Source of the DNA: a virus
IMG/VR virus record: IMGVR_UViG_3300020197_002141
Coordinates: 1-38,112 of that record
Length of the DNA: 38,112 nt
Strand: one strand, 5' to 3'
Position numbers and translations under genes: made by a program. Under the pieces are notes generated by a model. The model was given only the letters and a program-made list of their open reading frames with translations. It was not told the origin of the DNA and did not search any database. Below, in pieces: positions 7,745-34,491 of this stretch; positions within the stretch are counted from its first letter, which is position 1, and every line of letters begins with the position of its first letter.

Positions 7745-7795
7745 TTTTAGTCTCCATATGTGATAAGTATAGCCGAAATAAAAAGTCAAGCAACC

Positions 7796-19083: not shown

Positions 19084-19085
19084 TT

Positions 19086-20500: not shown

Positions 20501-20715
20501 TGGTCAATCACTTTAAAAACAAAACTTAAATCGCCGTCATCGCTTTCAAAATTTTTGAGTTTCATATCGAACAAAAACTGAGTTTGTTCGTCGTTGAGCA
20601 TGGCAAGTAGATCACCCAATGTCCCATCGCTGCCCCAAACGTCCATAGCCAATTCGTCTATTTGTTTGTGCAAATCTTTTTTCATTTTTATGTTCAACCA
20701 ATAATTACCAGACAT
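20497..20715 (-). CDS. Unknown small acidic protein
   Basis: A 72-aa protein starting MSGNYWLNIKMKKDLHKQID. A helix is followed by an acidic tail (FESDDGDLSFVFKVIDQ). AGAGG lies 6 nt before ATG, directly downstream of the terminator hairpin that ends the prkA gene. It may therefore be expressed from readthrough or from its own promoter. Its stop overlaps the next start (ATGA). Function unknown. Confidence 0.7.
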   Translation of the reverse strand: MSGNYWLNIKMKKDLHKQIDELAMDVWGSDGTLGDLLAMLNDEQTQFLFDMKLKNFESDDGDLSFVFKVIDQ

Positions 20716-20732
20716 GATATACCTCTAAAAAA

Positions 20733-20771
20733 CTGCCCTACCAGCCAAGTATTTCCCGACTGATAGGGCAG
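20733..20771 (-). terminator. Terminator after prkA
   Basis: On the minus strand, CTGCCCTA and TAGGGCAG form an 8-bp stem, extended by weaker pairs (TCAG with CTGG), and are followed by TTTTTT. This is a good rho-independent terminator between prkA and the downstream small genes. It would reduce the amount of YeaH and SpoVR message relative to PrkA. Confidence 0.85.
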
Positions 20772-20791
20772 CAGCGGTTTCATATTTTCAA

Positions 20792-22867
20792 TTATTCGTC
20801 TTGTGCCAAATCGCCTCTAGCAAATATACCGCCTACGAAATCGAGAACATCCGTTGCAGAACGGTCATTATAACCGTATTGCTTGATAAGACGTGTCTTG
20901 ATGGCGTCAATCTTCTCTTGAATATCTTTGTCCACAACCGTCGCCCCGCTCACATTGAGAGCAGACAACTTAATTGTGTCCTTAACATCCTCGAAGAGCT
21001 TGGCTTCAAGAGCCTTCTTGAGCTTAGGATTGGTATCCCAGCGGAATTGCTTGCCCTTAACCGATAGATCACCGATGAAGGCGGCAATCGAGCGACGGAA
21101 ATCATCGGCCCCTTGGTCTGGAATATCAATCTTGGACTCAATCTGCCGCATCAAGCGTTCATCTGGCTTGCGATCCTGACCCGTGATTGGGTCTTTAATC
21201 TTGGACTTACTGATATAAGCCATGATGTTGTCAATGTAGTTGCCACACAATCTGATAACTGCGTCTTCATCGCCAACGAGGGCTTTCTGAACTTCGGCCT
21301 TCAAGATTTCTGTGAGCTTCTTGAGGGTCAAGTCTACGGCCCCGATATAACGACCAACTTCATCCTTGTTATTCAAGAGCGACGAGCCTTCCAATCCATC
21401 TCGAATTTCATTCAACACCATGAAAGTATTTACATATTCATGGTTGTTGGCGAGACAGTTAGAAATCTTGTCTTGAACATAACGAACGGAGATACCCGTC
21501 GTCATACCTTCGTTATCGTAACGGTCACGCAACTCTTTAACTTGCTCTTCTGTCCAGCCCGGCAACAGTCTGCCGTCGTACAATTCAGCCTTGGCGACCA
21601 AATCAATCTTGCCATCTTTATCGTCATTGAGACGAGTAAGAATTGCCCAGAGAGCAGCTACTTCGAGAGTATGCGGAGCAATGTGTTGACGCACCTTGCC
21701 GACGCCATAATCCTTTTCCAGAATCTTGAGTTCTTCGGACCAACGCAAAGTATAAGGAACGTCAACCTTTACAGTACGATCACGCAGAGCTTCCATGTAC
21801 TGGTTGCTACGCAATTTTTCGTATTCTGGGTTGTTTGTGTGGGCGAAGATAGCTTCGTCAATAGAAACTTGGCTAAACTTCTTCGGTTTGATATTTTGTT
21901 CTTGCGATGCACCCAACAAGTCATACAGGAACGCCTGATCCAACTTGAGGGCTTCGATAAATTCGATCATGCCACGATTGCCCACGCAAAACTCGCCGTC
22001 GAAATTGAAGCTACGGGGGTCAGAATCGGAACCAAAGTGGCTGATGCTTCGGAAGTTAATGTCACCAGTCAACTCGGTCGAGTCTTGGTTTTTCTCATCC
22101 TTTGGCTGGAAAGTTGCGATACCGCAACGGTCGGCCTCGGAATAAACCTTGCGAACGACACGGATGTGATTTTCAAGAACTTTCTCAAGATCGCCTTCGT
22201 TTCTCTTGAGTAATTCGTTCATGAAGAACTTGCAACGTGGGTCAAGTTCGCCATCGCATCGGAGATTATACAAATCAACTTTCAATTCATCATCAGCCAT
22301 ATCCCTGTGAATTTCATTCAACTCGGCCATAATAGGGGCACGGAGTTCAGGGGGAAGTAGCTTTAGAGGCTGCTCGTGCATCGGGCAGTCATCTTCGGGA
22401 TGTGTATAGATGCCTTCTGTACCAGTCGGCAGATTAACCCAGCGGAAAGAATACCAAGCCCCATCGTCCGATCTGGAATAACTTTCCAACTCTCTTTTGA
22501 AGAGTCGGCAGAGAGTGGACTTAGAGCTACCTACAGGTCCATGCAAAAGTAAAATACGCTTCTCAGTACCATAACCCCCCGCAGCACCCTTGATGAATTT
22601 CATCAAGGAGTCCTTCGTAGGCGTCAGCCCAATAATGGGATTATCTGGATTATCAAAAAACTTATAATATGTGTAGGTTTTTCGATATTCTTCCACTTGA
22701 TGTGTGCCCTTGGAAAGCACCATATCCCAAATCATTTGCCAAGCATTGCGAACTAGCTTGGGATTTTTGTAACACTCATCGACATACTGACCGAAACTCA
22801 TTTCTGTGTTAAGTACACGAAATTTGTCCCGATCAAACTTTCCAATTACTCTGCTCAATGCATTCAT
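20792..22867 (-). CDS. prkA: PrkA-family AAA serine protein kinase
   Basis: This 691-aa protein matches bacterial PrkA/YeaG in length and order. The N-terminal AAA domain has Walker A GPVGSSKST (from residue 110). The family block FNFDGEFCVGNRGMIEFIEA and DEAIFAHTNNPEYEKLRSNQ are typical. The C-terminal kinase-like part contains FVGGIFARGDLAQDE as its tail. In bacteria PrkA phosphorylates or remodels targets in nutrient and stress responses, together with YeaH and SpoVR, which are encoded just downstream. GGAG lies about 9 nt before ATG. Phage carriage suggests control of host physiology during infection. Confidence 0.93.
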   Translation of the reverse strand: MNALSRVIGKFDRDKFRVLNTEMSFGQYVDECYKNPKLVRNAWQMIWDMVLSKGTHQVEEYRKTYTYYKFFDNPDNPIIGLTPTKDSLMKFIKGAAGGYGTEKRILLLHGPVGSSKSTLCRLFKRELESYSRSDDGAWYSFRWVNLPTGTEGIYTHPEDDCPMHEQPLKLLPPELRAPIMAELNEIHRDMADDELKVDLYNLRCDGELDPRCKFFMNELLKRNEGDLEKVLENHIRVVRKVYSEADRCGIATFQPKDEKNQDSTELTGDINFRSISHFGSDSDPRSFNFDGEFCVGNRGMIEFIEALKLDQAFLYDLLGASQEQNIKPKKFSQVSIDEAIFAHTNNPEYEKLRSNQYMEALRDRTVKVDVPYTLRWSEELKILEKDYGVGKVRQHIAPHTLEVAALWAILTRLNDDKDGKIDLVAKAELYDGRLLPGWTEEQVKELRDRYDNEGMTTGISVRYVQDKISNCLANNHEYVNTFMVLNEIRDGLEGSSLLNNKDEVGRYIGAVDLTLKKLTEILKAEVQKALVGDEDAVIRLCGNYIDNIMAYISKSKIKDPITGQDRKPDERLMRQIESKIDIPDQGADDFRRSIAAFIGDLSVKGKQFRWDTNPKLKKALEAKLFEDVKDTIKLSALNVSGATVVDKDIQEKIDAIKTRLIKQYGYNDRSATDVLDFVGGIFARGDLAQDE

Positions 22868-22974
22868 TGTATTTTTCTCCGATTCTTTGTCGTTCGCAAG
22901 GAAGGGACTACGAATATCCCACGCTAAATAAATATAGCGACTAAAAAAATATATTCAAGTCTTGAAAAGCAAAT

Positions 22975-23325
22975 TTATTTAACTTCGCCCCAATTTTTGT
23001 CATTGCCCAAATCGTTTATTTTTCGATAAGGCGTGGCACCAACATGGGACTTATCCTCGGCATTTTTACGCTGGTCTATAACACCACCGGGCTTTTCCAT
23101 TTCATGATGAAAACGGTAATCGTGCCCGCTGGATTCGCTATTCCATCTATCTGTGCCGATTGGATTGCCGAACGTGAAATTCGGGCAACCTATAATTTCC
23201 TTTTTCTTCCTAGACTTGCATTTGGGGCATTTGCCCTTCTTTACATTCTGGTATTTCTCGGCCATAAGCGACCAAATATCATAAACACACTGACATTTTT
23301 TGCATTCAAATTCATAACGTGGAAT
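22975..23325 (-). CDS. FmdB-like zinc ribbon protein with apparent AUU start
   Basis: Read from ATT at 23325, the 116-aa protein begins (M)PRYEFECKKCQCVYDIWSL and continues to GKCPKCKSRK. That gives the two zinc knuckles (CxxC twice) of FmdB-type regulatory zinc ribbons, which typically start MPRYEYEC. The first ATG is 20 codons later and would delete the first knuckle. AGAGG lies 6 nt before ATT. The rest of the protein (GCPNFTFGNPIGTDRWNSES, KINDLGNDKNWGEVK) is a phage-specific tail. The gene is flanked by A/T-rich spacers and ends before a weak hairpin with a T run. The family call is good; the unusual start rests on the zinc-knuckle argument. Confidence 0.75.
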   Translation of the reverse strand: MPRYEFECKKCQCVYDIWSLMAEKYQNVKKGKCPKCKSRKKKEIIGCPNFTFGNPIGTDRWNSESSGHDYRFHHEMEKPGGVIDQRKNAEDKSHVGATPYRKINDLGNDKNWGEVK

Positions 23326-23363
23326 AACACACCTCTTTTTTTTTGAAGGAAAATATTTTTTTG

Positions 23364-23651
23364 CTATTCTTCCTCTAATTTTCTCAACTTTTTGTAAACC
23401 TCATCTACACGCTCTAATTGAGCTTCGAGGCTCAGAAATTTCCACCAAAAAGACTTTTCACACATCGCTATGGCACGGGATAACAACTTGCGATTTAAGT
23501 CACGACTAACTATAGCAATTTGTGCGTGCTGAATTGCTTGTTCTTCTTCGGCAATCTTTTTGTATTCTTCAGGCGTCAAAATAGAATCTGGGTCGTTAAA
23601 AAAATTGTCAATATCATCTCGATCATTGTCATCATAATCAAATCTTCTCAT
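23364..23651 (-). CDS. Small helical acidic protein
   Basis: A 95-aa protein starting MRRFDYDDNDRDDIDNFFND. The ATG at 23651 is preferred, with GAGG about 9 nt upstream and the previous gene's stop just before it. After the acidic start it is helical (TPEEYKKIAEEEQAIQHAQI, LEAQLERVDEVYKKLRKLEEE). No family is recognised. A structural or scaffold role would fit the helical, charged composition but is unsupported. Confidence 0.7.
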   Translation of the reverse strand: MRRFDYDDNDRDDIDNFFNDPDSILTPEEYKKIAEEEQAIQHAQIAIVSRDLNRKLLSRAIAMCEKSFWWKFLSLEAQLERVDEVYKKLRKLEEE

Positions 23652-23656
23652 GGTGA

Positions 23657-24271
23657 TTATCCTCTCACAGCTAAAAATAAAGGTGTAGAATCCTTCCACA
23701 GTTCAGCCAAACGCCTTTCATTGGAACTCATGTCTACGTCCTCGTATTTCCAAATCGGCGTAATTGGATGAATCTCTTTATTTATCCATGAGCTTGTAAC
23801 AAACTTTCCCCATCCATCTTCATATGTCATAAAAGTTTCAAAATCTTTCCCCTTAACGTCAAAAACCAATAACTTGTCGTAACGATCTACTGGTTCTGTC
23901 ATTTCGGTTAAAAAAGTTGCTTTTGGCACAGAAAACGATTTGTTGAAAACGAAAACGTCCGACAATTCTCTAACTGCCACTACGTCGGGAGATAAGATTA
24001 AAAGAGGAAAAGAAAGGATATTTTTTTCAATGAAATATTTGGCATGAGACAAAGGGGTGTCTGTTTTTCGCAAAGCAAAAGGAACATCGCATCTTTTGGT
24101 CCAGTCAAATAACTGATGTTTCATCAAAAAACGATTGCAGACTACAGCCACCTTCGCTTCTGGAATATTTCGATAAAAGGAATACCACGCCAAAAAACTC
24201 ATCCAATGATGACATGGCGTGTAATCGCATACGATGAGTATGCTGAGATTCTTCCCGGTATTTGTAATCAT
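23657..24271 (-). CDS. Putative glycosyltransferase-like protein
   Basis: This 204-aa protein starts MITNTGKNLSILIVCDYTPC. The Rossmann-like first strand, a second strand (AKVAVVCNRFLMKHQL), and LLILSPDVVAVRELSDVF, which resembles the donor-binding strand of GT-A enzymes (usually YLDxD), suggest a small glycosyltransferase or nucleotide-sugar-binding protein. KLLVFDVKGKDFETFMTY and the C-terminal WKYEDVDMSSNERRL also fit that layout. The DxD is not conserved (SPDV), so activity is uncertain. It lies between a leader-bearing small protein and a helical protein on the same strand. Confidence 0.5.
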   Translation of the reverse strand: MITNTGKNLSILIVCDYTPCHHWMSFLAWYSFYRNIPEAKVAVVCNRFLMKHQLFDWTKRCDVPFALRKTDTPLSHAKYFIEKNILSFPLLILSPDVVAVRELSDVFVFNKSFSVPKATFLTEMTEPVDRYDKLLVFDVKGKDFETFMTYEDGWGKFVTSSWINKEIHPITPIWKYEDVDMSSNERRLAELWKDSTPLFLAVRG

Positions 24272-24291
24272 GCACTAATTGAGTAATCAGA

Positions 24292-24477
24292 TTATTTTCC
24301 CTCACGGGAATAAATTTTCCCCGGTACTAGCATACCTGTATATGTGGAGCCAACAGACAGTTTGGCGGGTCTTACCGCACCACGGGAGATAATTTTGCCC
24401 GGAGTGTGACCACTGCCCGTGCCATACAGCTTCACAGTCTTCTTTTTGGCTTCTAGGAATTGACGGAAAGTCATCAT
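24292..24477 (-). CDS. Small leader-bearing basic protein
   Basis: This 61-aa protein starts MMTFRQFLEAKKKTVKLYGT. The first ten residues closely resemble the capsid-targeting leaders of T4 internal proteins (M-K-T-Y-Q-E-F-I). The remainder is basic and Gly-rich (TGSGHTPGKIISRGAVRPAK). There is no standard ribosome binding site; CTAAATA stands a few bases upstream. It is probably a DNA-associated protein packaged in the capsid, by analogy only. Confidence 0.68.
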   Translation of the reverse strand: MMTFRQFLEAKKKTVKLYGTGSGHTPGKIISRGAVRPAKLSVGSTYTGMLVPGKIYSREGK

Positions 24478-24481
24478 ACCG

Positions 24482-24488
24482 TATTTAG
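24482..24488 (-). promoter_or_regulatory. Possible late-promoter-like CTAAATA
   Basis: CTAAATA on the minus strand lies 4 nt before the ATG of the leader-bearing gene at 24477, matching the arrangement at 7796. The 51-base divergent space also holds GGATATATACTATT before the plus-strand gene at 24529. Both genes encode N-terminal leaders, so shared late expression is plausible. Tentative. Confidence 0.3.
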
Positions 24489-24528
24489 AGTGGAAAATTA
24501 AAATAATGGGACTAGGATATATACTATT

Positions 24529-24792
24529 ATGATAACTTTTGAACAATTCATGAAAAGAAAACGGATCGTGGAACAAGGCGAAGCTCCACCCGAAATTATG
24601 AAAGCAGCCACTAATATCAGCAAAAAAAACAAATCTGCTGTAATTGGCGCTACTGCTCCGCAAGAATTACCAAATATTATGAAGGATAAAGCCGCTATGG
24701 ATTTGGTAAAAGCAGATCCAAAGAATGCCGGAAAATTAGGTCAGGTACTCACTGGACTAGACGCCAAAGAAATTGAAAAACAACAACAATAG
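24529..24792 (+). CDS. Small leader-bearing helical protein
   Basis: This 87-aa protein starts MITFEQFMKRKRIVEQGEAP, again with the F-x-x-F-[LM] leader followed by a charged stretch. The rest is helical and basic (IMKAATNISKKNKSAVIGAT, LTGLDAKEIEKQQQ). It is divergent from the similar small gene at 24292-24477. Its stop is 10 nt before the next ATG, so it is probably co-transcribed with the Cys-rich membrane protein. No family beyond the leader is recognised. Confidence 0.72.
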   Translation: MITFEQFMKRKRIVEQGEAPPEIMKAATNISKKNKSAVIGATAPQELPNIMKDKAAMDLVKADPKNAGKLGQVLTGLDAKEIEKQQQ

Positions 24793-24802
24793 GAGAACTA
24801 AC

Positions 24803-25111
24803 ATGAAATGTTGCTTTTTAGGATCGTTTATGGGTGCCCTACTTGGCGTTGTAGCCAGCTTGGGACTCTGTTTTACTCTATTCTGCCCATGCTGTAAAGA
24901 TGTCGGTTGTTGCAAAGATGTCGGTTGTTGCAAAGATGGTTGCTGTGTCTGCTGCAAAGACAAAGTTTGCAAGTGCTGCGATGACTGCAAATGCGGTACT
25001 GACTGCAAATGCACCGCTGACAAGAAATGCTGTGACGCCTGCAAATGCCCACAACACTGTGGCAACTGCTGCAAAAATGAAAAGTGCGAAAAATGTTGCT
25101 GTCACAAATAA
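24803..25111 (+). CDS. Cysteine-rich membrane-anchored protein
   Basis: This 102-aa protein has AGGAG 8 nt before ATG. Residues about 5-29 form one hydrophobic helix (FLGSFMGALLGVVASLGLCF), giving a membrane anchor or uncleaved signal. The remainder holds most of the 32 cysteines of the chain, in repeats such as CCKDVGCCKDVGCCKDGCC and CKCGTDCKC. Part of the repeat is an exact 18-nt DNA duplication (tgtcggttgttgcaaaga). Such density suggests metal binding of the metallothionein kind or dense disulfide cross-linking; it does not match a known spacing that I can name. It overlaps the 3' end of hldE on the other strand by 10 nt. Confidence 0.75.
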   Translation: MKCCFLGSFMGALLGVVASLGLCFTLFCPCCKDVGCCKDVGCCKDGCCVCCKDKVCKCCDDCKCGTDCKCTADKKCCDACKCPQHCGNCCKNEKCEKCCCHK

Positions 25112-26478
25112 CACTTTTTTAACTCTTCCCATTTTTTAATTGCTCCTGTACTTGACAAATCTTCAAATTTAGGAGCAATATAAACTTTGTCCACCAAATC
25201 AGCCCCTACTACATTATGTACGCAATAAGGCTCGCCTTTGACAAGTACATCCGGCTTCAATTTTTTGATAAGCTCATACGGCGTGTCTTCTTCAAACGGC
25301 ACAATATAATCAACACATTCAAGATTGGCCAAAACCGCCATACGGTTTGCCAAACTGTTAATGGGACGACCCGGCTTCAATCTGGCGACGGATTCATCCG
25401 TGTTCACCGCAACTACCAGCTTTTCTGCCTTTGATTTGGCAAATTTCAGAGTCTCAATATGCCCTCTATGCAATATATCAAAACATCCATTTGTAAAACA
25501 AAGACTGTAATCTCTGGGTAAATCGGGAGAAACATACTTGGCTTCTTGGGGAGCATGTTTCCGTAAAATCTTCTGAACAGTAATGGGCGAATTGTGCTTT
25601 TCTTGCACATATAAAGCACCCATCTCGAAGGCGATTTCGGCAACTTCATGAGGCATAAAATTGTGAGCCATCGCCATAGCTGTAAATGCCATGAAACAAT
25701 CGCCAGCACCAATTACGCTATTCGGAGAATCATTTGTTTCTTTTGTAGTATATTCAAAATTCTTTGAGTAAACACCCTTTCTGCCCAGAGTTATCATAAC
25801 CTCTTTGGCTTCTGTAATTTGTTTAATCAAATCATATTGTTCTTCCAAATGTCGTTCGCCAGTCAATGCGCAGGCTTCGCTGTAATTCGGCTTAATTAGG
25901 TCATAACCTCGCCAGTGAATCAAGCTTTTCTTGGGGTCAACGATTTTGTAACGAGTGTTGCAAAAGCCTTTGAAATAGCCGCAAACCTCTTCGTTAAAAA
26001 AACCTTTGTCATAATCCGAGAAAATCAACACATCAAAGAATATGTCTGAGGCTCCCAAATCACGACGAATCTGCGGCCAAATCTCATGAGATGTATACGG
26101 CATTTCTACATCCCAACGATAGGTCGGAAAATCATCGCTGTAAAAACGTTTCTTTCTGGGGAGGGGCTTGTCGAGATTCCCGCAAAACCGTGTGTTAATT
26201 CCATGATTGCGGAAAACACGGTCGGCCTCTGGGTCAGTGACACTGATAAGGTATGTGTCTACATTGAAATGCTTGAATTGGTAGGCAACATTAGCCGCAC
26301 CACCGGGCAAACTATAATCAGGATTTGACGTGGTTGAATGCATCACCGGAATGGGAAATTCCGGTGATATTTTCTTTACGTTGACGTAGTAATACTCGTC
26401 AACCATCGCATCGCCAACCACACCAACTGTTATTCTTTTATGTTTATTTCTTTTCAGAAATTCTGTAAAGAGATTCAT
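25102..26478 (-). CDS. hldE: Bifunctional heptose kinase/adenylyltransferase (HldE/RfaE-like)
   Basis: This 458-aa protein has both HldE domains at normal length. The N-terminal ribokinase-like domain has LPGGAANVA (about 58-65) and VIGAGDCF with the catalytic Asp (260). The C-terminal nucleotidyltransferase has FTNGCFDILHRGH (328-340), NTDESVARLKPGRPIN and LVKGEPY. HldE phosphorylates D-glycero-D-manno-heptose 7-phosphate and adenylylates the 1-phosphate, leading to ADP-heptose for LPS or other glycans. In a phage it may supply sugars for glycan modification or alter host LPS. The first residues (MNLFTEFLKRNK) resemble the leader motif. AGGAG, 6 nt before ATG, lies in the 3' arm of a terminator hairpin. 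Confidence 0.9.
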   Translation of the reverse strand: MNLFTEFLKRNKHKRITVGVVGDAMVDEYYYVNVKKISPEFPIPVMHSTTSNPDYSLPGGAANVAYQFKHFNVDTYLISVTDPEADRVFRNHGINTRFCGNLDKPLPRKKRFYSDDFPTYRWDVEMPYTSHEIWPQIRRDLGASDIFFDVLIFSDYDKGFFNEEVCGYFKGFCNTRYKIVDPKKSLIHWRGYDLIKPNYSEACALTGERHLEEQYDLIKQITEAKEVMITLGRKGVYSKNFEYTTKETNDSPNSVIGAGDCFMAFTAMAMAHNFMPHEVAEIAFEMGALYVQEKHNSPITVQKILRKHAPQEAKYVSPDLPRDYSLCFTNGCFDILHRGHIETLKFAKSKAEKLVVAVNTDESVARLKPGRPINSLANRMAVLANLECVDYIVPFEEDTPYELIKKLKPDVLVKGEPYCVHNVVGADLVDKVYIAPKFEDLSSTGAIKKWEELKKCYL

Positions 26479-26481
26479 AAA

Positions 26482-26512
26482 AAACTCCTATGGGCTTAGC
26501 CTATAGGAGTTT
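26482..26512 (-). terminator. Terminator hairpin that also holds the hldE ribosome binding site
   Basis: On the minus strand, AAACTCCTAT pairs with ATAGGAGTTT, with inner pairs GGCT and AGCC, followed by TTTTTT and then ATG. It ends transcription of the upstream FMN-barrel gene. The 3' arm contains AGGAG, the only binding site for hldE, so a folded stem would hide it. Confidence 0.82.
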
Positions 26513-26516
26513 CGCA

Positions 26517-27113
26517 TTATCTATTTTGGGTTCTATTGGCTCGCAAATTTAACTTATTAGCAGTTTTACGATATTCATCCACATCTACTTCCCCGATTTC
26601 TCCAAACCCGCCGATAAAATAAATGGATTCTATATCAAGAACGTAAAAGTTGAAGTCGCCAAAGTCAATAAATTCCTTGGCATCGGGATGTTCGGCCAGA
26701 TAATTCTTCTTTAATTTCTTTACACTTTTCTCATCCGTAATCTTTACGAACTTGCCAGACAAAGTAACTCTGGCACCATTAAACATGTTCCCATCCTTGT
26801 CAGGCTGAAATACCATAACGCTGACGTTTGGATTTTTGTTGATATTATTGGTGTGAACTGCCAAATCAGAAATAAAGACATATGGAGCGCCCGCATAGGT
26901 CTTGCAACAAGAGGATTTTACCAAAGCGAATGGCATAACCGATCCGTAAGGTTTCGGCTTTACATTTTTCTTTGATTCGGCAATGGTAGAAACCATGCCA
27001 ACCTTATGCTTTTGCATCATCTTAAACGCCTGAACAGCGTAAGATTCATCTTCTTTTTTGTCGGCGGAAAACATAGCGGCCCCCATCAAACAAACAGCAA
27101 TATACGAGAACAT
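26517..27113 (-). CDS. Secreted pyridoxamine-phosphate-oxidase-like (FMN split-barrel) protein
   Basis: The 198-aa protein starts with a signal-like segment (MFSYIAVCLMGAAMFSADKK). The rest follows the FMN split-barrel pattern of the HugZ/pyridoxamine oxidase superfamily: HKVGMVSTIAESK, PYGSVMPFALV, APYVFISDLAVHTNNINKNP, VSVMVFQPDKDG, ARVTLSGKFVKI, and a C-terminal FNFYVLDIESIYFIGGFGEI. Members bind FMN or heme degradation products; some degrade heme. A secreted phage version is unusual and its substrate is unknown. AGGAG lies 9 nt before ATG inside the terminator hairpin that ends the TIGR array transcript. Confidence 0.78.
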   Translation of the reverse strand: MFSYIAVCLMGAAMFSADKKEDESYAVQAFKMMQKHKVGMVSTIAESKKNVKPKPYGSVMPFALVKSSCCKTYAGAPYVFISDLAVHTNNINKNPNVSVMVFQPDKDGNMFNGARVTLSGKFVKITDEKSVKKLKKNYLAEHPDAKEFIDFGDFNFYVLDIESIYFIGGFGEIGEVDVDEYRKTANKLNLRANRTQNR

Positions 27114-27120
27114 AAAAAAA

Positions 27121-27152
27121 CACTCCTAAAGAGAACCTTTTCTAAAGGAGTG
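27121..27152 (-). terminator. Terminator of the tasR-TIGR array transcript
   Basis: On the minus strand CACTCCT and AGGAGTG form the base of a stem, extended by AGAAAA with TTCTCT, and are followed by seven T residues. It lies 29 bases after the last array repeat, so it defines the 3' end of the array RNA. Its 3' arm also holds the AGGAG of the next gene (ATG at 27113). Confidence 0.88.
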
Positions 27153-27180
27153 TAATTTGAAAAATTTCGCACGGGGAGGT

Positions 27181-27630
27181 TGGGTTTAATCTATATAGTG
27201 GCTCGCATACTGCCAGTGGGTTTCATGCCGGGACTGGCTCGCAGGGAAGTCTTGGGTTTAACGTATCTATTGGCTCGCATGTATTCCGTGGATTTCATTT
27301 CGACCTTGGCTCGCAAACAAGCTGTGGATTTCATTTCCGGGGTGGCTCGCACATACGTGATGGGTTACAAGAATCGGATGGCTCGCACTTACCTGTTGGA
27401 TTTCACCGGCGCTCTGGCTCGCATCTCCACATTGGGTTTCACGCAGTATCTGGCTCGCATTTTGTCATTGGGTTTAACGTATCTATTGGCTCGCAGGCTT
27501 CGGATGGGTTTCAGCTTTCCTTTGGCTCGCACGAATACTATGGATTTCATTCGGGCGTTGGCTCGCACATTCGTGATGGGTTACAAGCATCGGATGGCTC
27601 GCACTTACCTGTTGGATTACACGCACCCGG
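27181..27630 (-). repeat. TIGR array: 25 alternating 9-nt repeats, 24 spacers of 9 nt
   Basis: The array is strictly periodic: 9-nt repeat, 9-nt spacer, with no length errors. Two repeat types alternate on the minus strand. TGCGAGCCA occurs 12 times without change. The other occurs 13 times as TGAAACCCA, TGAAATCCA, TTAAACCCA, TGTAACCCA or TGTAATCCA. The unit is therefore 36 nt with two different 9-nt spacers. Spacers in transcript order: ACAGGTAAG, TCCGATGCT, TCACGAATG, ACGCCCGAA, TAGTATTCG, AAGGAAAGC, TCCGAAGCC, ATAGATACG, ATGACAAAA, GATACTGCG, ATGTGGAGA, GAGCGCCGG, ACAGGTAAG, TCCGATTCT, TCACGTATG, CCCCGGAAA, CAGCTTGTT, AGGTCGAAA, CGGAATACA, ATAGATACG, AGACTTCCC, GTCCCGGCA, CTGGCAGTA, CTATATAGA. 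It follows tasR on the same strand, its first repeat and spacer boundary overlapping the tasR stop. By analogy with known TIGR systems it would be cut into 36-nt dual-spacer guides. Confidence 0.9.
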
Positions 27631-28603
27631 TTGGCTTATTCCAATTGGGCACTTCAATATAATCACAGTGACCACCATGTTCAAGAACCCAAGGCTGGGA
27701 AACCGACAATCCAGCTTGAGTTCTGGCGACAACCCAATAATGTTGCAAAAATATTTTAGCGGTCTTGCGAATTGCTCGGTTGTGTGCATGTCCAAGTGAA
27801 ATACCACGAGAAACTTGCAATGCTTTTTCTTTGTCGTAAATATCCCGATAGATTGGTGTTCTATGTTTAATAAACATATCTACAACATTGTACATCAACG
27901 AACGAATTTTGCCCGCCCAATTATTTGGCTGGCCTTTAGTTTTCTTTTGAACCTTACCATCATAAACACCATATCCTGAATAAGCCCATAATGCAGAAAC
28001 AGTATTGAATCGCTCAATATCACCAATTAAAGCGACCAGCCCACCGGCAATAGCAGGTCCGATGCCTTTGATCTTCAACAACCATTCATTATAAATAGGC
28101 TCTTCCTTGAGTTTTGTTTCAACGGCCTTTAATAGCTGTTTTTCGGCTTTTTCAAAAGTCTTAAAAAATTCACCCAATACAGGGTTATCTTCTTCGATAA
28201 ATAATCTGTTGTTTGTGCGAATGCGAACTTCTTGAAAATCTTTGAAAGTAGCATAAGCACAAGATAGAACTGAGGGAAGCCTAAACGGACGGAACAACTC
28301 CGGGCGGGTTTTCGACAGCGCCCAAATTACTCGCACATCATTTTCGTCAGTTTTTTCAAAGTCAGGCTTGTGATTTTTCTGCACTTGCTCTCGTGCTTTG
28401 GCGGTATCATTAGGCTTACAACGAAGAACTTTCGCACCAACATCCAAAAACTTTTTTGCGTATTTGGCGGGCATGTTCTCCGTCCAAATCACAATTTCAG
28501 GAGAAGGATCGGGCAAAGTTTTCGTAATCTTTTTGCCATCAGTCACAGCCAACTTGTCTGTTTTGTGTGACCAATCCACAGCATAATTTTTAACGTCGTC
28601 CAT
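27617..28603 (-). CDS. tasR: TasR: RuvC-Nop-like RNA-guided nuclease of a TIGR-Tas system
   Basis: The 328-aa protein starts MDDVKNYAVDWSHKTDKLAV; ATG at 28603 has GGAGG 5 nt upstream, whereas an upstream TTG would overlap that site. The N-terminal domain is RuvC/DEDD-like: D10 in YAVDWS, E42 in IVIWTENMP, and D86 and D89 in KTDENDVRVIWAL. A helical middle leads to the C-terminal domain with IKGIGPAIAGGLVALIGDIE and AYSGYGVYDGKVQKK, related to IS110 transposases and Nop proteins. The serine-bearing ISK-x-GN segment of IS110 enzymes is replaced by KGQPNNWAGKIRSLMY, which argues for nuclease rather than transposase. The array directly downstream supports TasR. Known TasR proteins cut DNA matched by both spacers of a guide RNA. 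TATAAATA precedes the gene. Confidence 0.87.
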   Translation of the reverse strand: MDDVKNYAVDWSHKTDKLAVTDGKKITKTLPDPSPEIVIWTENMPAKYAKKFLDVGAKVLRCKPNDTAKAREQVQKNHKPDFEKTDENDVRVIWALSKTRPELFRPFRLPSVLSCAYATFKDFQEVRIRTNNRLFIEEDNPVLGEFFKTFEKAEKQLLKAVETKLKEEPIYNEWLLKIKGIGPAIAGGLVALIGDIERFNTVSALWAYSGYGVYDGKVQKKTKGQPNNWAGKIRSLMYNVVDMFIKHRTPIYRDIYDKEKALQVSRGISLGHAHNRAIRKTAKIFLQHYWVVARTQAGLSVSQPWVLEHGGHCDYIEVPNWNKPTGCV

Positions 28604-28632
28604 AAATCCTCCAAGCAAAATATCGTTTTGAT

Positions 28633-28640
28633 TATTTATA
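28633..28640 (-). promoter_or_regulatory. TATAAATA element before tasR
   Basis: TATAAATA on the minus strand lies 29 nt before the tasR start, in the 42-bp gap after thyX. It equals the T4 late-promoter core and also resembles a bacterial -10 box. No convincing -35 is seen because upstream bases are thyX coding sequence. It could drive tasR and the array separately from thyX. Confidence 0.4.
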
Positions 28641-28645
28641 CAAAA

Positions 28646-29533
28646 TCAATCTCCGACAATCAATCCCAACAAAGCGGCCTTTTCTTTCCACTCTGCTCGT
28701 TCTCGTTTATTCTCTGATTCAATCTGGGGTGCAGTACCTTCAACATTCCAGCCAACGTATCGCCGCAAAGCTTCTAATTCGAGTCGAGTAAACTTTTTGG
28801 CCCCTCGGTGGTCGTGATAATCGTCCCACGCTTCAACGGCCCAAGGAACGATAGGAGTAATCAAACCCAGCATCGCATCAGCAAATACACGAATTTCCCA
28901 TTGAGCGTGCTTGTCGCATCGCAGACCAAGGAAGTGGAATAAATTGTGCAAATCAATCTTCCAATACCACTCGGTATAAAGATTGACAGGAAGAATCATA
29001 CGAGACTGTTCACGAGCAACGCCGTTGTTCAAACCCTGCTCGTATGCTTGATAGGATTTAAGGCATATTTCATCTAAATTAGCAAGAAATCCTTGAGCGT
29101 CTATGTTCTCAATTTTGCCTTCACTTCCTTGCTTATTTGTTTTTGATTGCTGTCGGACGTTATCCAAATCTGGCTTATAAAACTCGTCCTTCATGACCGA
29201 ATATCGTCCGCTATATTCATTGATATTTGCAGTTCTGTGACGCACTGCTTGTCTGGCTATAAAAATTGGCATTTTCATATGAAATTTGAATTCAACCATC
29301 TCGAATGGCGTAGTGTGAACATGCCGCATCAAATATCGAATCAATCCACGGTCTTCGTTAAATGACTTTGTGCCATCGCCATATGACACTCGTGCCGCTT
29401 GAACAATGGCATAATCAGAAGTTTTTTGTGATTCTGGAACCATCCGTGGCATAACATCAATCAATGTAACATGCCCATGATCTAAACACTTAATTGTTTT
29501 CTCTGGTACGTTGTTCATTACATCGTAAAGCAT
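28646..29533 (-). CDS. thyX: Flavin-dependent thymidylate synthase
   Basis: The 295-aa protein has the diagnostic ThyX motif RHRTANINEYSGRY (from R98). Other family marks are QAARVSYG, LMRHVHTTPFEMVEFKFHMK, AREQSRMILPVNLYTEWYWK and DLHNLFHFLGLRCDKHAQWE. ThyX methylates dUMP to dTMP using methylene-tetrahydrofolate and FAD/NADPH; phages carry it to raise the dTTP supply for replication. Length is slightly above the 220-270 usual because of a C-terminal helical tail (SENKRERAEWKEKAALLGLI). The start has GAGAAG about 5 nt upstream. With the dNMP kinase at 33.5 kb it forms part of the nucleotide supply set. Confidence 0.95.
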   Translation of the reverse strand: MLYDVMNNVPEKTIKCLDHGHVTLIDVMPRMVPESQKTSDYAIVQAARVSYGDGTKSFNEDRGLIRYLMRHVHTTPFEMVEFKFHMKMPIFIARQAVRHRTANINEYSGRYSVMKDEFYKPDLDNVRQQSKTNKQGSEGKIENIDAQGFLANLDEICLKSYQAYEQGLNNGVAREQSRMILPVNLYTEWYWKIDLHNLFHFLGLRCDKHAQWEIRVFADAMLGLITPIVPWAVEAWDDYHDHRGAKKFTRLELEALRRYVGWNVEGTAPQIESENKRERAEWKEKAALLGLIVGD

Positions 29534-29568
29534 AGTCTTCTCTCAAATGGTAAGTGCCGGAAACTTTG

Positions 29569-29760
29569 TCAAATACAATTATGCTTATGTTGATCGCCCT
29601 CTTGATACCACATCTTAGGCACAGAATAGCAAGTAAAGCAGATTTGATCGACTTTTCTGAGAAACAAAAAAGGCTCTGCCATGCGGACAGCAACATCTAT
29701 GGGTTGATGACAAATAGGACAAGTATCGCCAGATATTTTCTCTTTAGCCATGTCCCGCAT
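29569..29760 (-). CDS. Small zinc-finger-like protein
   Basis: Up to 63 aa; the more likely start is the ATG at 29751 (MAKEKISGDTCPICHQPIDV). CPIC and CFTC form two CxxC knuckles separated by 25 residues (VAVRMAEPFLFLRKVDQI), a probable zinc site. The tail ends YQEGDQHKHNCI. It lies upstream of thyX on the same strand, 35 bp away. Another frame overlaps it but lacks this motif. Function unknown. Confidence 0.65.
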   Translation of the reverse strand: MRDMAKEKISGDTCPICHQPIDVAVRMAEPFLFLRKVDQICFTCYSVPKMWYQEGDQHKHNCI

Positions 29761-29793
29761 TATAAAGAAAGCAATGCAGGGAGTAAAGCTCGA

Positions 29794-31254
29794 TTACTGC
29801 CAGCCAGACTTATTTTTGCTTGGCAATCCATATTTGTTCACTTTTTGGAGCCACGACCCAAACCTCTGCAAACGATTTGGTCCTTGCGGCTGTTGTTGCG
29901 GCTGTTGTTGCGGCTGTTGTTGAGACATACCTCCCGCTGCACCGCCTACGGCAGCGCCTATGGCAGCGCCGGGAACATTGGAATAAGTCAATGTCGTTTG
30001 TATTTGTATTGGTGCATCAGGCTGTCCGTAACTAATTGGCTTAAAATCTTGGACTGTTACTCCCACTTCTTCCAGTTGTTGTCTTAATTGTTCGTGGGCC
30101 ATTCGCAAGACTTCTTCTGCTCCCTGTCCGGGTTGTGGCGTAATAGTCGCATGTACCTGAAGAACCATCATGCCCGGATGCGGCCCCTCAACAGGCTGCG
30201 AGGTAGTAAAAGAGCTAAATATATCTGAATTATTCAATTCATCATTTACCGTTTTCAACAAATCTCCCCCATTCATTAGAATGGCAGTATCAGTCACATC
30301 GTCGCCATCATAATCTCCCTGCACAGTATCGCCTAGCGATTTGCCAGTGGTTGAATAAATATCTTCGCCAGTAACACTATAACTACCATCTGCATTTGCG
30401 GTCACTTCCGGTTTGAAATTCTGTTGGAGCCATTCCATATCATTTTCAGGAACAGTGCCTGAATCTCGAACGGCATCGACGGCTGTTGTCGCCACAACAT
30501 CTGTTCCTTGAGTAAGCGCATTAACCGCCGAACCAACACCCGCTCCAACTGCTGCACCTACGGCCATTAAAAATGCAGTTTTAGCAATTGACAATTTATT
30601 TTCTTTAGCAAACTTCGACAATGCCGAGTAGGAACTTTTAATCAAATTAGATATGTTAGCTGAATATTTTGCAGTCTTACCAGAAACGTAACCAGCACCT
30701 TTGCCTATGGCCCCGCCAAGTCGATCTGCACCTTTTTCATTCCACCATGTTCTCGCTTGAGTAAATTTATCGCCCAACCAACTTTCTTCATACATTTCAA
30801 CCGCCGCCAAATATTCTCTAAATCCCATTCCAGAATTTAAGTTCCATGCCAGTTGGGGCTGAGGCTGGGGCTGAAGCTGTTGTTGAGGTTGTTGCCAACC
30901 CATTTTTTGTGCGCCTGCATCAAATGCCTTACCCGCAATTTTGTTAATTGGCTTTCTAACAAAATACATTAAGGCAGCAAATGGAATAGCTGTTGGTCCC
31001 CCAACGATTCCAGCAGCTACGATGGCCGTAGCAAGTGGCAACGGAATGCCAACTTTCTTGGAGTATTTTTGAGCGATACTTCCGGCTTGTTTAATAGCCG
31101 GGATAGCTTTTTGAGCATACTTTTGCAAATCTTGTTCATTTTCCTGCGACCCTCTAGCTTGGTCATATTTTGATTGAAACCCTTGTTTCAAAGAATCAAA
31201 AAAACCTTCGTCTATTTGTTGCGAATAATCACTCAATGTGTAATTTAATGTCAT
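29794..31254 (-). CDS. Large putative virion protein with membrane-like segments and duplicated start module
   Basis: This 486-aa protein starts MTLNYTLSDYSQQIDEGFFD with AAGGA 4 nt upstream, overlapping the previous stop (ATGA). Hydrophobic Gly/Ala-rich stretches near residues 68-98 (LPLATAIVAAGIVGGPTAIP), around 225-250 (FLMAVGAAVGAGVGSAVNAL) and near 435-450 could enter membranes. Gln/Pro-rich linkers occur at 121-134 and near 455-465. Around M143, GMGFREYLAAVEMYEESWLG repeats the leader motif and is followed by a charged helical segment like that after the N-terminus, suggesting a fusion of two leader-bearing proteins. The C-terminal half (PEVTANADGSYSVTGEDIY) is beta-rich. It may be an ejected internal protein; no family is recognised. 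Confidence 0.72.
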   Translation of the reverse strand: MTLNYTLSDYSQQIDEGFFDSLKQGFQSKYDQARGSQENEQDLQKYAQKAIPAIKQAGSIAQKYSKKVGIPLPLATAIVAAGIVGGPTAIPFAALMYFVRKPINKIAGKAFDAGAQKMGWQQPQQQLQPQPQPQLAWNLNSGMGFREYLAAVEMYEESWLGDKFTQARTWWNEKGADRLGGAIGKGAGYVSGKTAKYSANISNLIKSSYSALSKFAKENKLSIAKTAFLMAVGAAVGAGVGSAVNALTQGTDVVATTAVDAVRDSGTVPENDMEWLQQNFKPEVTANADGSYSVTGEDIYSTTGKSLGDTVQGDYDGDDVTDTAILMNGGDLLKTVNDELNNSDIFSSFTTSQPVEGPHPGMMVLQVHATITPQPGQGAEEVLRMAHEQLRQQLEEVGVTVQDFKPISYGQPDAPIQIQTTLTYSNVPGAAIGAAVGGAAGGMSQQQPQQQPQQQPQGPNRLQRFGSWLQKVNKYGLPSKNKSGWQ

Positions 31255-31409
31255 TTATCCTTCTTTTTCTTATCTTCGTCAGAATCAGCTACCAACAATT
31301 TAGGGGCTGAACGAGTAACTGGTCCGCCCATAATTGGACGTGCAAATACGGCAACAGCATTAGTTCCTGTGCCGACTTCTTGTAATTGAAACCATTCTTT
31401 AAAAGACAA
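31251..31409 (-). CDS. Small leader-bearing protein
   Basis: Read from TTG at 31409 the protein has 52 aa, MSFKEWFQLQEVGTGTNAVA, with the F-x-x-W-F leader at its N-terminus, then ARPIMGGPVTRSAPKLLVAD and an acidic/basic end (SDEDKKKKDK). A GTG at 31433 with GGAGCAG upstream is an alternative, adding eight residues. The TTG follows the previous stop by one base, and its own stop overlaps the next ATG. It is probably a packaged small protein of the same group as its neighbours. Confidence 0.6.
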   Translation of the reverse strand: MSFKEWFQLQEVGTGTNAVAVFARPIMGGPVTRSAPKLLVADSDEDKKKKDK

Positions 31410-31410
31410 T

Positions 31411-31884
31411 TTACATTGGGGGTGGTGCAGCACCTGCTCCTCCTGCGGCTCCTGCGGGTGGAGTCCATCCTGTTGTTAAAAATTGAATGAGGTCTTTTCT
31501 GCTAAGATGATACCGACCTTCATCTGGCATACCTTTGTTGAGTTTGTTGCCTTTCAAATAGCTTCTGTCATGTTTTTGGGGTTTAAGTCGAATATCAGCA
31601 CCATCTGGCGTCAGTGTGCCGGGGACTACTTCCCAAGCGGACAATTTATAAAGTATCTCCTTGCCGGGTTTTCCCAAAGAAAAATGGGAAGAAACCCACG
31701 GCTGGGCTGAAATCATTTTTGCTACATCTTTCCATCCAATGCCAAATTCATCCCCTAAAGCGGAAAAATAGTCTTCCGATTGAGGGTCGGTATCAGATTC
31801 ACCTTCCCCTTTTTCGGCCCGCTTTTGAGGGTCTAAATCCATTTCCTCGAAAAAATGTTTAAAGCCAGTCAGTAAATACTTCAT
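31411..31884 (-). CDS. Unknown leader-bearing protein
   Basis: A 157-aa protein starting MKYLLTGFKHFFEEMDLDPQ. The ATG at 31884 is chosen because upstream codons would read into the divergent gene. The N-terminus fits the leader pattern (FKHFFEEMD). It continues with an acidic stretch (KGEGESDTDPQSEDYFSALG), a soluble alpha/beta part (FGIGWKDVAKMISAQPWVSS, LYKLSAWEVVPGTLTPDG), and a Gly/Ala/Pro tail (PPAGAAGGAGAAPPPM). No binding site is clear; CTATATAAAAG precedes it. First gene of a three-gene minus-strand unit of apparent virion proteins. Confidence 0.68.
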   Translation of the reverse strand: MKYLLTGFKHFFEEMDLDPQKRAEKGEGESDTDPQSEDYFSALGDEFGIGWKDVAKMISAQPWVSSHFSLGKPGKEILYKLSAWEVVPGTLTPDGADIRLKPQKHDRSYLKGNKLNKGMPDEGRYHLSRKDLIQFLTTGWTPPAGAAGGAGAAPPPM

Positions 31885-31913
31885 GCTTTTATATAGAACA
31901 CACAAGGTTAAAT

Positions 31914-32585
31914 ATGTTACCATTCCAGAAGGACAATAGTAAAAGGAAATGGATGTGCTTTGTTTGTGGGAGAGAATTCGAGGAATACGAACCCTACAAA
32001 GCACATATCATTGAAAATCATGAAGAGGGGCGAGAATACGTCTTATGCCCTTTAGCTCGTTGTGGGGCACCCGTTCGGGATTTAAGGCTACACTTTAAAG
32101 CCAAGCACCCCTCTGAAAAAGAAGTCCCCAAGATCGGGCAAATGAAAGCTCTGATATGGAAAGACCACAGCACTCGCACGGGTAAAATGAAACAAAGGAA
32201 ACCAAAATTCCGAGAAGGATATTTAATTTCCTCAAAAAACGGCGGCAAAGAAATGCATTACCGTAGTGGATATGAATGCGAAGTATATGAATGCTTGGAA
32301 TATCTGCCCGAAGTCGTAAAATACGATGTAGAACCATTCAAAGTTCAGTATTTTTTCGAGGGCGAAACGCACGAATATAACCCAGATTTAAGTGTCTTAT
32401 TTAATGATGGCCATGTAGAAATATGGGAAATTAAACCAGCCAATCAAACCTCATTACCAAGGAACACAGCGAAATGGACAGCCTGCCAACAACATTGCGA
32501 AGCGAGGGGATGGAATTTTATGGTAATGACCGAGAAGGGGATCGGGAAACTAAAAATGGCAGCGAAGGAAATGAGAAAGCCCTAG
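31914..32585 (+). CDS. TnsA-like PD-(D/E)xK endonuclease with zinc fingers
   Basis: This 223-aa protein has AAGG 6 nt before ATG. The N-terminal 65 residues hold two C2H2-like fingers: MCFVCGREFEEYEPYKAHII with ENH, and LCPLARCGAPVRDLRLHFKAKH. The C-terminal domain follows the TnsA pattern: YRSGYECEVYECLEYLPEVV, then EPFKVQYFFEGETHEYNPDL with the Asp, then VEIWEIKPANQ with E-x-K, then KWTACQQHCEARGW. The E...PD...ExK layout is that of an active nuclease. Related phage proteins are found near head genes, and it may trim DNA during packaging, or cut host or mobile DNA. It is divergent from the virion-like cluster and overlaps the next gene by 112 nt. Confidence 0.78.
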   Translation: MLPFQKDNSKRKWMCFVCGREFEEYEPYKAHIIENHEEGREYVLCPLARCGAPVRDLRLHFKAKHPSEKEVPKIGQMKALIWKDHSTRTGKMKQRKPKFREGYLISSKNGGKEMHYRSGYECEVYECLEYLPEVVKYDVEPFKVQYFFEGETHEYNPDLSVLFNDGHVEIWEIKPANQTSLPRNTAKWTACQQHCEARGWNFMVMTEKGIGKLKMAAKEMRKP

Positions 32586-32761
32586 AAATTCTGGATGAAC
32601 AAATCTTCTACAAACAAGGCTGTTTTGAAAAAGGAAGAAGATGGATTAAAGGGTGTCATCCAGAATTAGGCGTACTCGTACATGGATGGTCAGGCTGGGA
32701 AACTGTTCAAGATTTTGACAGAATCCGGCCTATGCATACATTTGAAGTACACGAGAAATAA
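32474..32761 (+). CDS. Unknown overlapping small protein
   Basis: Up to 95 aa from ATG at 32474 (AAGGA about 9 nt upstream). A later ATG at 32510 would give 83 aa. The first third overlaps the TnsA-like gene in another frame. The unique part reads EILDEQIFYKQGCFEKGRRW and LGVLVHGWSGWETVQDFDRI, plausible for a compact domain. It converges with and overlaps the minus-strand gene at 32730. The start is uncertain; the non-overlapping part is likely coding. Confidence 0.55.
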   Translation: MDSLPTTLRSEGMEFYGNDREGDRETKNGSEGNEKALEILDEQIFYKQGCFEKGRRWIKGCHPELGVLVHGWSGWETVQDFDRIRPMHTFEVHEK

Positions 32762-33359
32762 ACGAAGGAATAGCAACTCTACACTGTTTGCGATTCACTT
32801 GTTTCCAACGACCACCTTTGTTTTCTAAGTGTGGCACATGCCTGTATGCAATGCGATAAAAATCTTGTAATTCCCATTCGCCATTTTCATTGCACCATTT
32901 CCTTAAACGATAACATTCACTTGCTGGCATCGTAAAATTCGGAGTTGAACGTACCGGATAGTGACCACAATACTCTTTGCCAGAGTGGTTTTGTGCAGCC
33001 AACAAACATCGACCATCTATTATCAACATATCACTAAATAATTTGTTAAACATTAAAATTATTGATTTGTAATATTTCAATTTTCTAGCTTCTACATCGA
33101 CACCTTGAGACACAAAACCAAAATTTCTATTGCTTTTAACTGCGGCCTCGATGAAAAATATCTGTTTGAAAATCTCCAACCTTAAATCTGATTTATCATA
33201 ATCAATGAAACCATTTTCCCTATCATTGTCAAATATTGAACATTCTGGGTCTATAGAGAAAAAATCTCGAACATAACCTCTGCCCATAAGATCATATTCT
33301 TCTGATCTTTCTGAGTTAAAGTTTGCACAAAGAATGCCATTTTTTAAATAAGTTCCCAT
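32730..33359 (-). CDS. Unknown protein
   Basis: This 209-aa protein starts MGTYLKNGILCANFNSERSE with GGAG 6 nt upstream, immediately after the stop of the truncated cupin. It is aromatic and soluble, with FFSIDPECSIFDNDRENGFI, KQIFFIEAAVKSNRNFGFVS and a helical LKYYKSIILMFNKLFSDMLI block. A basic C-terminal part contains KWCNENGEWELQDFYRIAYR and WKQVNRKQCRVAIPSF. No family is recognised. It belongs to the minus-strand unit running down from the dNMP kinase. Confidence 0.75.
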   Translation of the reverse strand: MGTYLKNGILCANFNSERSEEYDLMGRGYVRDFFSIDPECSIFDNDRENGFIDYDKSDLRLEIFKQIFFIEAAVKSNRNFGFVSQGVDVEARKLKYYKSIILMFNKLFSDMLIIDGRCLLAAQNHSGKEYCGHYPVRSTPNFTMPASECYRLRKWCNENGEWELQDFYRIAYRHVPHLENKGGRWKQVNRKQCRVAIPSFISRVLQMYA

Positions 33360-33539
33360 TTAATCTCCGACGTATAGGACTTCATCTTTAATTTTGTGAT
33401 AATGCCAAGAACATTTCTTGTCTTTGTTAAAGCCAAGAATTTTGCCACAATAGTTGGGGAAATTACAAATCCAAACTTCGTAACCCCAACCTTTTTTGAC
33501 GTAATTACATGGTTGAATCAGAATATTTGTATTTGACAT
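33360..33539 (-). CDS. Truncated cupin-like protein
   Basis: A 59-aa frame starting MSNTNILIQP. The part KKGWGYEVWICNFPNYCGKI and KKCSWHYHKIKDEVLYV is the first half of a cupin barrel of the mannose-6-phosphate-isomerase type, including the HxH metal ligands and the following Glu. The chain stops at LYVGD, where family members continue with several more strands. It overlaps the dNMP kinase by 35 nt and abuts the next gene. It may be a remnant or a minimal half-barrel that dimerises. Confidence 0.68.
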   Translation of the reverse strand: MSNTNILIQPCNYVKKGWGYEVWICNFPNYCGKILGFNKDKKCSWHYHKIKDEVLYVGD

Positions 33540-34134
33540 AGGGAATCAACAACCTATCCAGTTTAGAATAAAAATCTGCAGGCGTTCCATCATTTATCAA
33601 AAAGTAATGATAAAACTCAGAACCTTTGGGACCATCTACATCGTGGTCGATAAGACCCTCTTTCTGTGTTTGAACGCACCATTCAATAATTGGCTTGATT
33701 TGTGATTCAGATGGATTAGGATCATCATTCAAATATCCGGGCCGATAAAGAACAACATTAATTCCGCCTTTGTTGTGTGCATGACGTGCTTCATTGATAT
33801 ATCTGGAATCAGATATTACCAATTGTTTAGATTCATCTCGCAAAGCAACCTCAATCCATATATCGCCTTTAATTTGTCGGAAACCATCTCCAATAAATTG
33901 AAGGCTTTTACGGACATTCATCAACATGCCGGGTGGAGGCTCTGGATTTCTTTTCCAGTCCTCGATGAACTTTCTATCCACCCCAAAAGCATCGCAATAT
34001 ACATTCTTGACGGCATTGGCAAATGCTCCACGTTCCCATTGCCCCATATTTAACTTATTGAGTTTGGGACAAATATAGTCCGCAGCCACATCTTTTCCCA
34101 TGCCTAATTGAGCAGAAAAAGAAACTATTTTCAT
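33505..34134 (-). CDS. Deoxynucleoside monophosphate kinase
   Basis: This 209-aa protein starts MKIVSFSAQLGMGKDVAADY, a degenerate P-loop like that of T4 gp1-type dNMP kinases. FGVDRKFIEDWKRNPEPPPG, MLMNVRKSLQFIGDGFR, LVISDSRYINEARHAHNKGG and INVVLYRPGYLNDD match the family order (lid, DVR-like strand, NEA, final strand). It phosphorylates dNMPs, including modified ones in some phages, and works with ThyX to build dNTPs. GGAG lies 9 nt before ATG. It is divergent from the plus-strand genes at 34219. Confidence 0.85.
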   Translation of the reverse strand: MKIVSFSAQLGMGKDVAADYICPKLNKLNMGQWERGAFANAVKNVYCDAFGVDRKFIEDWKRNPEPPPGMLMNVRKSLQFIGDGFRQIKGDIWIEVALRDESKQLVISDSRYINEARHAHNKGGINVVLYRPGYLNDDPNPSESQIKPIIEWCVQTQKEGLIDHDVDGPKGSEFYHYFLINDGTPADFYSKLDRLLIPYVKYKYSDSTM

Positions 34135-34218
34135 TTCAACGACTCCGATCAGAAAGAAACTATAATAACGTGGTCTATTTTAGCTTTATGATGTAGTTAA
34201 ATCAATATCGGAGATAAA

Positions 34219-34491
34219 ATGAAAGAGAAAAAACCAGTAGAAGAAATCTGCGGCAACTGCTTGCTATACAGCCCACATAAAAAGGAATGCAAAGTCGCCG
34301 TGCTTGTTGAGGGCAAAGAATATCACATGCCCGTATTCCCCAGAGACAAATGCCACATGGAAGAATTGGGCATAGAAGTCAAACAAGTTAGATGGTGGGT
34401 CGAAGACAAAGAAGGCAAACCCACCGCTGGCAACGGCACTGTAAAGATTGAATATCCAGCAGGATTTTTTAATGATGAGGTAAACAACTAA
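34219..34491 (+). CDS. Unknown small CxxC protein
   Basis: A 90-aa protein starting MKEKKPVEEICGNCLLYSPH; GGAG lies 6 nt upstream. A CGNC knuckle with later Cys residues (KKECKVAV, DKCHMEE) may bind zinc or iron. The rest is beta-rich (EVKQVRWWVEDKEGKPTAGN). Its stop overlaps the next start by one base, so it is coupled with the Cys-rich gene. TATAAT occurs about 65 nt upstream (actataataacg) and could be part of its promoter. Confidence 0.75.
   Translation: MKEKKPVEEICGNCLLYSPHKKECKVAVLVEGKEYHMPVFPRDKCHMEELGIEVKQVRWWVEDKEGKPTAGNGTVKIEYPAGFFNDEVNN

Follow-up and report, generated by a model that had tools for sequence, protein, structure and literature searches.

A huge phage carries a complete, probably functional TIGR-TasR locus with signs of half-guide replacement in its array

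The 38,112 nucleotides analysed here (the window; positions 1 to 38,112 of IMG/VR virus record IMGVR_UViG_3300020197_002141) are a fragment of a huge phage, with genes for SpoVR, DUF444, PrkA, DNA polymerase III, a clamp loader, a helicase and others. On the minus strand of the window, a gene for a compact nuclease, tasR, runs directly into an array of short repeats and spacers, which we read with high confidence as a complete and probably working TIGR-TasR (tandem interspaced guide RNA) locus. In TIGR-Tas systems, arrays give rise to 36-nucleotide (nt) guides, the tigRNAs, whose two spacers pair with opposite DNA strands, and the resulting cuts leave 8-nt 3′ overhangs (Faure et al, 2025; PMC12045711). 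The discoverers list as open questions how such arrays come about and evolve and what their targets are; they termed array emergence an enigma and did not report certain natural targets (PMC12045711). The present locus bears on array change. TIGR-TasR itself is already known (Faure et al, 2025; PMC12045711), and what is new here is a pair of near-isogenic contigs in which one half-guide has been replaced.

The tasR gene (27617..28603, minus strand) starts about 43 bp downstream of thyX with an ATG preceded by GGAGG and encodes 328 amino acids, with an N-terminal RuvC-like domain (residues about 1–110) and a Nop/IS110-like RNA-binding domain (about 111–320). The predicted product is TasR, as judged from its sequence match, family score and predicted fold and from the anatomy of the array. 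Its best sequence match is PDB entry 9mty, the Thermoproteota TaTasR complex (phmmer, E 1.4e-127), with 59% identity over 320 amino acids. The original prediction had read a RuvC set of D, E, D and D from the sequence, and this set is kept: D10, E42 and D86/E87/D89 are identical to TaTasR in the alignment, D10 being the equivalent of TaTasR D11, a residue mutated by Faure et al (2025; PMC12045711). The NCBIfam model NF052498 (TIGR_Tas_endo) scores 153.4 bits, above its cutoff of 100. An AlphaFold2 model (pLDDT 88) was compared with known structures, a check on TasR versus IS110 that had been proposed along with the prediction, and Foldseek ranked 9mty first (E 3.6e-29, TM 0.81/0.90), followed by TasH and only then by IS110-type recombinases. 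PADLOC-DB of 2023 contains no model for TasR, and a pattern search for TasR in GTDB genomes found no relative.

The array (27167..27636, minus strand) consists of 13 units, each composed of an edge repeat (TGCGAGCCA), a 9-nt spacer A, an A-rich loop repeat (TKWAAYCCA) and a 9-nt spacer B, and each end of the array bears a truncated edge repeat. Recounting gave 25 full 9-nt repeats of two alternating types and 24 spacers of exactly 9 nt, the very numbers of the original prediction; 13 of the repeats are loops (27621..27181) and 12 are edges. Its array extent, however, overlooked both ends: a 5′-truncated edge AGCCA (27636-27632), which together with the 10-nt spacer A of unit 1 lies inside the tasR frame (27622..27636, minus strand), and, at the 3′ end, a last 9-nt spacer followed by a 3′-truncated edge TGCGA (27171-27167). 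The array thus begins inside the 3′ end of tasR, whose stop codon TAA falls in the first loop repeat. All repeats contain CCA, and all full edges and 10 of the 13 loops start with TG, the other three loops starting with TT. Behind the array lies the rho-independent terminator that had been predicted to close it (27113..27153, minus strand), with stem ACACTCCT/AGGAGTGT followed by 7 T; its hairpin folds at −15.9 kcal/mol (z −3.0) and was established by folding, as a terminator scanner had overlooked it owing to a loop limit. A chance origin of the array pattern is excluded, since the alternating 9/9 register is kept over about 470 bp and the same edge/loop pattern recurs in 46 stretches of other viral contigs, mostly next to a Tas-like gene. 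Three IMG/VR pattern scans yielded about 60 loci that combine repeats with a Tas-like gene; L-numbers below denote contigs. With the 9mty match, the NF052498 score, the predicted fold and an array built according to the published rules, the proposal that same-strand protein and array form a TIGR-TasR system is borne out.

A sister contig, IMGVR_UViG_3300020198_000076, overlaps window positions 22943-38112 with 8 differences in 15,171 bp. One is a single-nucleotide polymorphism in the helicase gene (35739); the other seven fall in two array spacers and none in the repeats, and TasR is identical, with its reading frame intact in both contigs. Spacer B of unit 5 (27460..27468, minus strand) reads ATGACAAAA in the window, where the sister contig has the 10-nt AGGCCGATGC instead, and spacer B of unit 6 (27424..27432, minus strand), ATGTGGAGA, carries one substitution in the sister contig (ATGTGGAAA). 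Of three events, two lie in a 1.5% share of the sequence (p 0.0007); with the neighbouring B5 and B6 changes taken as one exchange, one of two events lies there and p is 0.03. An intact and identical tasR, together with differences concentrated in spacers, is read as a sign of use, so that TasR seems to be active in this huge phage. If half-guides are indeed overwritten in place, the contig pair would offer a direct before-and-after view of one such replacement.

Together, the window and the overlapping sister contig genes provide about 50 kb that is largely collinear with the 595-kb phage LR756511.1, with protein identities of about 29–67% where the two match. No Tas gene or array was found in the 550 kb of LR756511 that was searched. 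Where the window has thyX (28646..29533, minus strand; flavin-dependent thymidylate synthase, PF02511, E 9e-56), tasR and the array, LR756511 has proteins that, judged from the starts of open reading frames (ORFs), look like dihydrofolate reductase and the thymidylate synthase ThyA. Given these different genes at the matching place and the lack of Tas and array in the 550 kb searched, the tasR-array locus was probably gained by this phage lineage as an accessory insertion or replacement.

How would the locus work? Homology gives good support to a role in guided DNA cutting, with guide processing and cleavage carried over from the 59%-identical TaTasR. The tasR mRNA would continue into the array, and the array RNA would be cut in the edge repeats into 36-nt tigRNAs, as by TaTasR. 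A TasR dimer would bind the UG...CCA (box D/C) motifs of the edge and loop repeats; spacers A and B would then pair with opposite DNA strands of an 18-bp site reading 5′-A + revcomp(B)-3′, after which the two RuvC sites would cut both strands. The purpose would most likely be the cutting of competing mobile DNA. Several observations weigh against this picture of a locus with working, exchangeable guides. In the three of 13 loops that start with UU rather than UG, box D is broken in the corresponding tigRNAs. Among other near-identical TIGR pairs, arrays are as stable as their flanks, so that rapid spacer change is not universal. Finally, no convincing target was found in the phage fragments, in LR756511, in TIGR-bearing contigs or in INPHARED records.

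The predicted target geometry, with a gap of 0–2 between the half-sites, was derived from the published cutting rule; 5′-TCCGATGCTCATTCGTGA-3′ is an 18-bp site that it predicts for the TasR complex. No site within one mismatch of a window guide was present in the phage's own fragments, the 550 kb of LR756511 or about 1.8 Mb of TIGR-bearing phage contigs, and none of the 13 window guides had an exact, gapless site in 50,697 INPHARED phage records. In the INPHARED search, an 18-mer positive control worked in one query; for unit 1, the query used the final 9 nt of the 10-nt spacer A, whereas unit 6 was covered in both of its forms and unit 5 in its window form. Of the three guide patterns run against IMG/VR, two came from this phage. 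Window guides 2/8, used as one pattern, gave two matches, both with a 2-nt gap and judged to be chance, and the sister-contig half-guide of unit 5 with its partner gave none. The absence of targets is weak evidence, because each collection scan covered one guide and large collections contain matches to 18-bp sites by chance. The searches covered phage collections; in plasmid records, a site of 18 bp lies below the detection limit. Rival phages or plasmids, the targets considered in the original prediction, which had suggested a search with spacer pairs, are neither supported nor refuted by these scans of phage collections.

Could the guides instead act on the phage's own genome or on the host chromosome, in regulation, genome processing or host takeover? 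We regard this as possible, if doubtful. Targets in other phages were not found, TIGR-Tas in E. coli caused strong plasmid loss but gave no protection against phage infection or conjugation (PMC12045711), and this phage is known from a fragment only, all of which would fit such a role. The lack of any site within one mismatch in the phage fragments or in collinear LR756511 argues the other way, and a spacer replaced between near-identical contigs suggests that targets change.

The array itself seems to retain traces of its history. When all offsets were compared, spacers that are at least 8/9 alike occurred only at a unit offset of 6 (216 bp), namely B1/B7, A2/A8, B2/B8 and A5/A11; at the same offset, loop variants agree in register in 4 of 7 cases (permutation p 0.017), and the remaining spacer pairs show random similarity (1–4 of 9). 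From this likeness at the 216-bp offset, the first copy of a putative six-unit block (B1 to B7) would span 27388..27612 on the minus strand. The split between near-identical and unrelated spacers, where gradual mutation predicts intermediates, suggests whole-spacer replacement after block duplication. The likeliest scenario, to which we give about an even chance, is that a six-unit block was copied and single 9-nt spacers were then replaced in place. Its block-duplication step rests on combined evidence, because the two separate groups of alike spacers would agree on one offset by chance with a probability of about 0.1.

Alike spacers could also arise by unequal crossing-over inside repeats rather than by spacer replacement, which we consider rather unlikely. 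Recombination between loop repeats would likewise keep the A/B class and make mixed units. However, A5 and A11 are alike though both of their neighbours differ, and they share their offset with B1-A2-B2; moreover, the spacer in the sister contig was replaced in place, with no rearrangement, by a sequence absent from the array. It is improbable that this difference between the contigs arose as an artefact when a repetitive locus was assembled or co-assembled. Both contigs are metagenome assemblies and arrays are hard to assemble, but AGGCCGATGC had no other occurrence in either contig when the phage fragments were searched, so that a misjoin within the array cannot create it, the borders of the replaced spacer lie on repeat boundaries and all repeats are identical.

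Do other arrays change in the same manner? In 14 other TIGR contigs, spacers within a locus that are at least 8/9 alike always pair as A-A or B-B and never as A-B: there are about 18 independent same-class pairs, where chance would give 1.1, and in 12 of these pairs the partner spacers are unrelated (at most 5/9). This is the pattern expected from half-guide replacement or from recombination at like repeats. Seven contigs (L024, L027, L093, L095, L101, L115 and L131) form a phage group with TasA arrays that have common guides in different order, some of which vary slightly in the sequence of both halves. Between L101 (about 2200-3690) and L131, tasA and array are identical over about 1.4 kb with flanks that are several percent diverged, which looks like transfer or exchange of a whole tasA-array cassette. 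The same repeats occur in five named contigs of metagenome-assembled or single-amplified genomes, three of which also match Tas. Taken together, the sister pair, the block duplication and the A-A/B-B pattern indicate that arrays change by half-guides rather than by whole guides. Whether TIGR arrays adapt without a spacer-insertion machine, by copying blocks of units and overwriting single 9-nt half-guides while repeats stay fixed, seems to us evenly balanced; if true, the two halves of a guide could be redirected one by one. Across all TIGR loci, the last base (position 9) of both A and B spacers differs from the other positions in composition, with about 42% G and about 10% C.

Among known systems, TaTasR (9mty; PMC12045711) is closest: it shares the RuvC-Nop protein with an array directly downstream, the 36-nt units and 9-nt spacers, the UG/CCA motifs, the truncated end edges and the terminator. 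The window locus differs by its huge phage, an array that overlaps the end of the gene, a 10-nt first spacer, UU at the start of 3/13 loops and a known population variant with a replaced half-guide. TasA phage arrays (e.g., L101/L131, L120 and L107) have the identical edge TGCGAGCCA, near-identical loops and dual spacers, but their proteins align over the Nop domain only (window residues about 105–325), and no RuvC is detectable in them; of the Tas ORFs examined, those of L008 (36%) and L106 are the only ones with an alignment that extends to the RuvC part of TasR. TasH (PDB 9w04 and 21kl) has the Nop domain and uses tigRNAs, with an HNH nuclease in place of RuvC and 22–25% identity to the window TasR. 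The IS110/IS621 bridge-RNA recombinases share the RuvC-like DEDD plus Nop-like architecture and fold but have no array. The reading of the locus as a mobile element, with tasR as an IS110-family transposase flanked by repeats, and not as a guide system is very improbable and refuted by family scores and array: PF02371 (Transposase_20) matches above its cutoff and the fold search also lists IS621 and ISCro4 (E about 1e-6), but the IS110 equivalog model NF033542 gives 40 bits for a cutoff of 140, against 153 for a cutoff of 100 with TIGR_Tas_endo, identity to TasR is 59%, there are 13 dual-spacer units rather than one bridge RNA, and the locus is not a transposon here. Similar to CRISPR-Cas, repeats and variable spacers adjoin an effector nuclease, but two alternating 9-nt repeats, 9-nt spacers, a guide split over both DNA strands and a TasR effector set the locus apart from the single long repeat, spacers of about 25–40 nt and Cas effector of that system, and no adaptation genes were seen beside the window array.

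A possible natural target was encountered outside the window. Eight phage contigs share a guide, TAAAACTCG, and its variants, for which a match was found in a head-tail connector gene (PHROG 442), in the reading frame that had been predicted in advance; the connector-gene site for the shared TasA guide in L169, L171, L173, L174 and L175 is exact in two contigs and has one mismatch in the others. With four independent match groups, the result is near chance and is kept as a weak lead only, and other guides of the TAAAACTCG-bearing phages had no matches above controls in 80 connector-bearing phages. The idea of coding targets, based on codon-spaced differences between near-duplicate guides (L019, L024/L027, window units 2/8), was rejected, as only 3/8 two-difference pairs fit, which equals chance.

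Elsewhere in the window, a CREG/pyridoxamine-oxidase-like gene (26517..27113, minus strand; PF13883, E 6e-29) lies downstream of the terminator. PrkA kinase, DUF444 and SpoVR stand in a row (17485-22867, minus strand), a bacterial stress/sporulation set that is collinear and 55–67% identical in LR756511. DNA polymerase III alpha is split into two genes (2306-5089 and 13243-14631, both minus strand) about 8 kb apart, whose counterparts are adjacent in LR756511. Intein signatures occur in the clamp-loader AAA gene (5645-7789, minus strand; Hint and homing endonuclease) and an intein domain in the helicase (35202-38108, minus strand), and for both genes LR756511 aligns only to the parts flanking the signatures. 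A TnpB/IS605 OrfB-like gene with a Cas12f1-like TNB domain (9038-10195, plus strand) represents a second RNA-guided nuclease family in the same phage as TasR. Finally, a transfer-messenger RNA (tmRNA) gene, missed by ARAGORN, has its T-loop interrupted by a group I intron (11230-10846 and 10874-10636, minus strand), intron-bearing tmRNAs being a known form (PMC11915505).
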